From a virus, in the IMG/VR virus record IMGVR_UViG_3300045996_000217, positions 1-40,791 of that record: a DNA stretch of 40,791 nucleotides; one strand, written 5' to 3'. Positions 9,758 through 10,524 of this stretch are shown in pieces. The notes beneath the pieces were generated by a model. The model saw only the letters and a program-made list of their open reading frames with translations, was not told the DNA's origin and did not search any database. Every line of letters starts with the position of its first letter. Positions within the stretch are counted from its first letter, which is position 1. The translations under genes and the position numbers were made by a program.

Positions 9758-10090
9758 ATGACCAAAGCAGAACTACAAGCCGAACTCAGAGAAATTAAGC
9801 GCCGCCATGACGAAATCATTGCCGCTATCAGCGCAATTGATCACGCACCTGAAAACAATGTCTTTGCCTCGCTTGAGGAAGCCTCAGCAGAGTTGGAGGA
9901 GCGCTTACGCGACGAGGCGGCACAGGACTGTGAGGGCTCGCATAACTGCGGAGCTGACGTGTATGTGCAGGAATTTATCGTTGATGGCGTGCATTACGTC
10001 GGCTACTTGCATGTCGAGTATGGCCGTCACGACAAAACATATTACTTCATTGACAGTGCTCGCTTCGAGTACGCGAAAAAAGGCAACTGA
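9758..10090 (+). CDS. Hypothetical protein with N-terminal coiled coil, 110 aa
   Basis: Good ribosome site (AGAGGAGAAAAA). Residues 1-55 are heptad-like and charged (KAELQAELREIKRRHDEIIA), the rest beta-rich (YVQEFIVDGVHYVGYLHVEY). It is the last gene before the structured gap at 10.1 kb. Unknown function. Confidence 0.65.
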   Translation: MTKAELQAELREIKRRHDEIIAAISAIDHAPENNVFASLEEASAELEERLRDEAAQDCEGSHNCGADVYVQEFIVDGVHYVGYLHVEYGRHDKTYYFIDSARFEYAKKGN

Positions 10091-10096
10091 GTCTCC

Positions 10097-10346
10097 TCCA
10101 TCAGTTTGCAATGGAAGGTAATCGGAGCTGCCAGTCCCGATGCAGACAACTGGCACCAAGACGCATGCGCTCTGGCCCTTGCCGCCGATGAAACCAGATG
10201 AGGCGGAAGCAAGTGGTAACTGGTTTCCAGAGCGCAGTCGTGTTGGTGAATGCGCATGAGATGCGCGCCGACGCTGGTTCGATTCCAGCGCCCCGATCAC
10301 CGGGGAATTGCCTGAAGGCGGCTTCCTTCCGAAATGCTGGAAGCCT
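10097..10346 (+). ncRNA. Putative structured RNA with a tRNA T-arm mimic
   Basis: A roughly 350-base gap in a gapless operon. Seven hairpins follow each other: TCCAT 97-101/111-115; TGCCAGT 129-135/149-155; a 9-bp stem 166-174/228-236 stacked on an 8-bp stem 190-197/220-227; GCGCAT 252-257/261-266; GCTGG-TTCGATT-CCAGC 273-289; CCCCG 291-295/301-305; GGCTTCC 320-326/339-345 (add 10000). CCGCC (182-186) can pair with GGCGG (202-206) as a pseudoknot. The 273-289 hairpin is a canonical tRNA T-arm, and the arm before it has U33- and A37-like bases. No matching 5' acceptor strand exists, so it is not a normal tRNA. Strand taken from the operon. Confidence 0.55.
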
Positions 10347-10437
10347 AACCACCAACAGCATGGCGGACATGCTCAGAGCCGCACGGGAGTCTGCGCCGTA
10401 GAGGTAAGCAAGCAGGCCGCTTAACTAGGGGGAAGAC

Positions 10438-10524
10438 ATGGAACTAGACGAATTTGATGTAGTGGCGCGAATCGCTTTAGTGCTTAGCGTGATGGCGCTC
10501 TTTATTACGGGGATGGCGGTATGA
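10438..10524 (+). CDS. Membrane micro-peptide, 28 aa
   Basis: ATG 10438 has GGGGGAAG upstream, and the stop overlaps the next ATG (ATGA). Sequence MELDEFDVVARIALVLSVMA then LFITGMAV: acidic head and one transmembrane helix. Directly downstream of the structured RNA. Function unknown; it could also act as a translated leader for the next gene. Confidence 0.5.
   Translation: MELDEFDVVARIALVLSVMALFITGMAV

Follow-up and report, generated by a model that had tools for sequence, protein, structure and literature searches.

A modular phage RNA family with a hypervariable, at times tRNA-like arm, and its relative in an early-left operon gap

What is encoded by a stretch without proteins in an otherwise gapless phage operon? 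In the 40,791 nt of viral DNA analysed here (the window; IMG/VR record IMGVR_UViG_3300045996_000217), the early-left operon on the + strand contains 347 nt without open reading frames (ORFs) (10091–10437), bounded by an upstream ORF that ends at 10090 and, on the 3′ side, by the next plausible ORF, which starts at 10438. A sequence-only reading had proposed that this gap is protein-free and encodes a structured RNA with a T-arm resembling that of tRNA. The first of these claims held, as short ORFs crossing the gap gave no convincing match in a PHROG search (best E 0.021). The 28-codon ORF immediately 3′ of the RNA (10438–10524), which contains a hydrophobic stretch, had no PHROG match either. 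The region 10091–10440 folds with a minimum free energy of −145 kcal/mol versus −126 ± 6 kcal/mol for dinucleotide shuffles (z −3.1, equalled by 0/100 shuffles), and this fold, together with the covariation in relatives described below, confirmed the presence of a structured RNA with a T-arm. The element occupies about 10130–10357, and is larger than initially described.

The covariance search of Rfam that the sequence-only reading had called for did not place the RNA in a family, with no match in the gap region at gathering score and none of relevance up to E 10, and blastn with the window region gave no matches in plasmids. ARAGORN detected no tRNA gene in the window, the Rfam tRNA model was not reached and no acceptor-like stem was present beside the T-arm, in line with the earlier view that the 5′ acceptor and D-arm of a tRNA are absent.

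The T-arm and insert of the window member

The window contains one perfect T-arm (5-bp stem, TTCRANN loop) on each strand. That on the + strand, GCTGG-TTCGATT-CCAGC, is located at 10273–10289, and when the 250-nt region is dinucleotide-shuffled, a perfect T-arm arises by chance in 0.3% of cases. A blastn search of 50,697 phage records gave one significant match, between 10247–10349 and an unannotated stretch of Pseudomonas phage phPA-G (75% identity), in which the T-stem bases are swapped pair by pair relative to the window. The T-arm is one of three hairpins of an insert (10267–10349, + strand) that is homologous in phPA-G and in the IMG/VR contig L003. The other two are a CCCC/GGGG hairpin (10291–10305), with 4 pairs that are 100% paired in the three sequences and 1 double-changed pair, and the hairpin GGCTTCC-TTCCGAAATGCT-GGAAGCC (10320–10345), with 7 pairs of which 2 are double-changed and a loop, TTCCGAAAYGCT, that is near-invariant in the three phages. 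Three of the five T-stem pairs are double-changed across these phages, which are the compensatory changes that had been named beforehand as support for the structure. Taken over four helices (the three of the insert and the preceding hairpin P2, see below), all 20 pairs are 100% paired in the window, phPA-G and L003, and 7/20 are double-changed (0/500 shuffles), in a sample of the only three sequences with a window-type insert.

Pattern searches with the insert gave L003 and L005 as the only true matches in viral contigs, the rest resembling coding sequence, while the single match in genome contigs was a chance occurrence within Mycetocola coding sequence. A scan of 80 genomes from the phylum of Mycetocola with the family covariance model R1 (see below), run without a positive control, gave no matches.

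A family with a constant scaffold and variable inserts

The phPA-G region matched 169 phage records, and that of an enterobacterial relative matched 237, some of them in one block only. Most of these matches consisted of two conserved blocks around unrelated middles, with GTTGTGGTGAATGCGC-AGGCTGAT-GCGC as the 5′ block and GCCGG-AGATCAGCA-CCGGC-CACCACAAC as the 3′ block. The resulting family is present in well over 100 phages and prophages, including P1, HK620, PAJU2, Klebsiella phages and the BASEL phage Bas77. Each of two pattern scans of IMG/VR gave at least 120 matches, and among 5,426 complete E. coli genomes, 853 carried one and the same insert variant, which was unannotated in all of the matches listed. 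Judged by these sequence matches, the family is widespread in enterobacterial and Pseudomonas phages.

From the fetched loci we extracted 159 elements with 147 distinct inserts, forming 123 insert clusters. In the common scaffold an outer helix (P1) encloses, in order, a hairpin (P2), the hypervariable insert and a second hairpin (P3), with a core of about 65 nt plus an insert of 12–166 nt (median 74 nt). The insert lengths are evenly distributed over the three reading frames (51/46/50), and the region is therefore non-coding. In 47 diverse cores, double-changed pairs were found at 11/12 positions of P1, 3/3 of P2 and 4/5 of P3, with the P2 stem 100% paired across the family cores, and the covariation score of 0.374 compares with 0.118 for shuffled alignments (0/500), while slid partners gave no more than 0.13. 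The true variation is underestimated by these figures, since sampling was partly by exact match to the 5′ or 3′ block, which curbs the variation of P2 or P3 but leaves that of P1 almost unaffected. Extraction also required partial P1 and P2 pairing, giving a bias towards structure and not towards particular bases.

Conserved inverted-repeat ends with different inserts, and similar inserts carried by different P1 sequences, would also be expected of a DNA-level site for recombination or cassette exchange, in the manner of integron attC sites, where conserved ends enclose variable cargo. The neighbouring genes included no consistent recombinase, and since T-arms and terminators are restricted to one strand, we favour an RNA and consider such a DNA site highly improbable. 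An intrinsic terminator closely follows 29/142 members on the RNA strand, compared with 1/142 on the opposite strand. Of the 123 insert clusters, 7 contained a strict T-arm, where mononucleotide shuffles predict 0.06, and none did so on the opposite strand. In the 140 nt upstream of the elements, strict T-arms occurred in 10/124 cases, versus 0 on the opposite strand and 5/445 in distant windows, where some of the upstream T-arms may be part of ordinary tRNA genes (as at locus L180).

Six bases of the P2 loop are complementary to six of the P3 loop (GCTGAT/ATCAGC), with 98.6% of cells paired. As these loop bases are nearly invariant, the complementarity is not accompanied by covariation, and the P2–P3 kissing pair is a prediction; the conserved loops could instead form a protein site.

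Model R1 was built without the window, and scores of 67.9 bits for HK620, 61.1 for PAJU2 and 57.7 for both phPA-G and P1 were obtained. When the window was scanned with filters off, the best match was 10237–10361, at 15.8 bits and E 0.025; 369 kb of other phage loci, picked by a neighbouring AAA protein and doubling as negative control, gave no match at E ≤ 1. In the R1 alignment, the P1 5′ strand TGTTGGTG (10241–10248, strand B) pairs with its perfect 8-bp complement CACCAACA (10350–10357, strand C), and is directly followed by AAT and the P2 hairpin GCGC-ATGAGAT-GCGC (10249–10266, with P2 itself at 10252–10266), which align with AATGCGCAGGCTGATGCGC of the family, phPA-G and L003. The hairpin at 10252–10266 had been taken for an anticodon arm, with T and A in a 7-base loop; the R1 alignment identifies it as P2 of the scaffold, for which the usual family loop is AGGCTGAT, so that the anticodon-arm assignment has to be abandoned. 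The P3 hairpin that usually precedes the P1 3′ strand is missing from the window, and is present at the corresponding place in L003 and phPA-G. The P2 loop of the window, ATGAGAT, has also lost the GCTGA complementary to TCAGC of P3.

The loss of P3 accounts for the score of just 15.8 bits. The insert is homologous to those of phPA-G and L003, which are canonical members by their R1 scores (57.7 and 55.8 bits), and this homology, the P1/P2 arrangement and the upstream domain described below are the reasons for filing the window, on sequence grounds, as a divergent P3-less relative by descent and not as a canonical member. As far as structure is concerned, the gap almost certainly holds a divergent member of a large modular phage RNA family. 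The window element may be a decaying copy. Joint loss of the P2 loop and P3 is what a loop–loop contact would predict, in a single case. The sequence GCGGACATGCTCAGAGCCGC (10363–10382) is a candidate relocated P3, with a CTCA complementary to the TGAG in the P2 loop, and AGCATG/CATGCT forms an alternative hairpin at the same site. Just 3′ of P1, the hairpin AGCATG-GCGGA-CATGCT (10357–10382) overlaps GCGG-ACATGCTCAGAG-CCGC. A pattern search for a window-like P2 loop gave 7 matches, none of which was a relative.

The upstream domain, genomic contexts and proposed function

The window sequence 5′ of P1 has the order CACCAAGACGCAT-helix-insert-helix-AGTC, and a hairpin (P0, GCCAGT...ACTGGC, 10130–10154) lies directly 5′ of strand A, with a hairpin at this place recognised by eye in several relatives (for example at loci L034, L078 and L090). 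Strand A, CACCAAGAC (10154–10162), can form a helix with strand B, for which strand C competes. It is followed by a domain (10163–10239) comprising the internal loop GCAT/AGTC, the helix GCGCTCTGG (10167–10175)/CCAGAGCGC (10227–10235) and a variable 51-nt interior. The plan of ACGCAT and a helix immediately 5′ of P1 is common to 16 relatives, with the helix 94.9% paired and 5/8 pairs double-changed, and the covariation score of the whole structure was 0.345, compared with 0.169 when shuffled (0/500). The coaxial stack of 9 + 8 bp noticed earlier corresponds to 10154–10175 paired with 10227–10248, and the 5-bp pseudoknot proposed alongside it (GAAGG/CCTTC) can be written, with bases that are invariant in the three relatives of the insert and overlap a covarying stem. 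Enterobacterial members (L014, L018, L041, L048 and others) have another conserved upstream domain, AACAGGTAAGAGCATTG...CAGTGCTCTTTCCGTT, located approximately 100 nt 5′ of P1 and with a variable interior.

Compensatory changes, found in P1 and P2 as well as in the insert and the upstream domain, indicate that selection keeps the structure, the insert type of the window included. They also bear on whether the element is a remnant of tRNA genes, or debris of another kind, that lies in a phage RNA hot spot and has no present function. The loss of P3 in the window would fit such a relic, as would two members resembling tRNAs with altered anticodon arms, one (L078) with a D-arm and T-arm and lacking the anticodon arm, and the other (L128) with a tRNA-like outline and a long replacement where the anticodon arm would be. 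For the family this reading is largely refuted by the covariation, and we regard it as very improbable overall.

In the window, the A–B fold (−91.0 kcal/mol) and the B–C fold (−89.3 kcal/mol) are mutually exclusive and within 2 kcal/mol of each other. Upstream sequence able to pair with strand B over at least 7 nt was present in 19/134 relatives, compared with 3/134 control stretches, and the A–B helix was 89.5% paired in 17 sequences, with mostly one-sided changes. Sharing of strand B by two helices suggests, on these predicted folds, a folding intermediate or a switch. The near-equal energies would suit a cis-acting transcription element, with the scaffold and the competing A–B and B–C helices influencing RNA polymerase within the early operon, either as an attenuator or as a put-like antiterminator, the latter already raised by the sequence-only reading. 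Such a role is also compatible with the position of the element in the early-left operon of the window and PAJU2 (as well as phPA-G), with the presence of two copies each in PAJU2 and phPA-G, and with a strong promoter directly 5′ of the element at locus L067. Across the elements, σ70 promoters on the 5′ side were not enriched over shuffles. Against this, the HK620 element is located between pR′ and tQ, a position at which constitutive antitermination would make Q unnecessary, intrinsic terminators closely follow the 29/142 members mentioned above, and some members are antisense to their neighbours, among structural genes. A put-like mechanism also gives no need for a hypervariable insert. Because of the HK620 position, the 3′ terminators and the antisense cases, a cis-acting antiterminator is disfavoured, and a cis-acting element in general appears improbable to us.

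Other members were found between the late antiterminator and holin genes (Klebsiella phage 6), adjoining a tRNA (phiEt88) and beside tRNA genes in the tRNA region of P1. The P1 locus (L329) contains a canonical member and a possible diverged second member (18.9 bits, E 0.0099), at 1815–1922 and 2076–2205, 150 nt apart and near tRNA-Asn and tRNA-Thr. In Escherichia phage 24-32N, a 1.56-kb gene-free gap (L336:2302–3860) adjoins an annotated anti-CRISPR gene and contains a 66-bit member and three GGTTCGANTCC repeats. Klebsiella phage Madison (PQ368523) has a 3.2-kb tract without annotated genes 5′ of tRNA-Met (L337:1425–4638). One family member lies in this tract together with consecutive long, imperfect stems and fragments resembling T-arms, and the whole may be a giant composite built from RNA modules of this kind.

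Genes for tRNA are located at approximately 300 nt or closer to 11/124 elements, and one lies within an insert. Together with the T-arms in inserts and the intergenic place within the operon in the window, this proximity would be consistent with a processing or stability module, in which RNase P or tRNA enzymes, brought in by the T-arm, would cut the polycistronic transcript, with the scaffold shielding RNA ends. Most inserts lack a T-arm, and the window T-arm is not accompanied by an acceptor-like stem, which makes this module a poor candidate. The wider tRNA-mimic idea of the sequence-only reading fared better, and gained support from the repeated occurrence of perfect T-arms among the family's variable arms, even though its anticodon-arm part was wrong.

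The diversity of contexts (left operon, pR′–tQ, tRNA genes, antisense positions and an anti-CRISPR neighbour) argues for a trans-acting accessory role, and the lack of a constant partner gene favours an RNA that acts by itself or together with host factors. We consider it probable that the RNA is a trans-acting accessory RNA of the phage–host interface, acting in regions with phage exclusion and anti-defence genes. The scaffold would fix and protect the molecule, with the variable arm as effector, and the hypervariability of the arm would be the outcome of an arms race. More tentatively, the T-arm could imitate the tRNA elbow as a decoy or bait for a tRNA-recognising host factor, with tRNA-targeting defence nucleases and tRNA modification or decay enzymes as candidate targets. 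Since most inserts are without a T-arm, a tRNA decoy cannot alone explain the whole family, and the other inserts would address other targets. The combined reading, of a modular phage RNA serving as trans-acting accessory RNA and perhaps as tRNA-elbow decoy, is the best explanation overall, to which we give slightly less than even chances.

The combination of a constant scaffold and a hypervariable, at times tRNA-like arm is suggestive of a modular RNA effector of phages. In its boldest and rather unlikely form, phages mostly of Gammaproteobacteria would share an RNA weapon or shield, with a kissing-loop scaffold showing an exchangeable, fast-evolving arm that is sometimes a partial tRNA. If this is true, the arm would engage or neutralise host defence or other tRNA-recognising machinery, much as an RNA equivalent of the variable anti-defence proteins whose genes lie in these regions. 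The presence of the family in P1, HK620 and Bas77 makes these predictions testable in laboratory strains.

Comparison with known systems

This widespread and strongly covarying RNA family is missing from Rfam 15, and Rfam searches of the loci of relatives gave only tRNAs and known or chance sRNA matches elsewhere in these loci. The conserved blocks had no sequence match in 5.39 million open papers, searches of open papers by topic gave no description either, and within this open literature the family is new on this evidence. The YNNGG tandem repeats of the VIPR vrRNAs (PMC13142463) were not seen in the family elements.

The sequence-only reading had mentioned Y RNAs as one idea. The bacterial Y RNA YrlA, which has been reported in phages too, is non-coding and combines a tRNA mimic with a distinct stem made from distant strands. 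The family resembles YrlA in having a tRNA-mimicking part and a stem formed by pairing of distant strands, while a conserved P2/P3 loop pair and a hypervariable insert are, to our knowledge, not YrlA features. Scans with the YrlA model RF02553 at E ≤ 0.001 were negative for the window, phPA-G, PAJU2 and the L003 contig, as was cmscan, and no Ro60/TROVE protein (PF05731) was found in the records of the window, phPA-G, PAJU2, L003 and L252, where the window record is possibly a fragment and a host Ro60 is possible. These results speak against a Y-RNA-like element.

Similarity to the put RNA of phage HK022 lies in RNA hairpins in a lambdoid early operon, and we know of no hypervariable arm in put RNA. 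With phage tRNA genes the family shares the perfect T-arm with a TTCRANN loop and, in rare members, a D-arm, whereas the window element has no acceptor stem or ordinary anticodon arm and gave no cloverleaf. The Pas sRNAs are base-pairing sRNAs of enterobacterial prophages with a 3′ terminator, with PasD located near Q (PMC13192938). The family resembles these and STnc100 as small RNAs of enterobacterial prophages. It differs from the Pas sRNAs as so described, and from STnc100, which matches locus L016 at a place other than the family element.

The RNAs GOLLD and ROOL are associated with tRNA genes. Like the family, they are structured and phage-borne and have loop–loop contacts, which are predicted in our case. 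They form homo-oligomers, as shown by cryo-EM (PMC12286853). By analogy, the P2 and P3 loops might kiss between molecules to give an RNA-only assembly, an oligomer with the arms as cargo, for which the loop complementarity in nearly all members, the frequent proximity to tRNA genes and the Madison tract of chained stems around one element could be cited. We hold such an assembly to be improbable, given that both loop partners are lost in the window member and that the Rfam models of GOLLD and ROOL were unmatched. The two known RNAs are also several hundred nt in length, far larger than the family element with its core of about 65 nt plus insert.
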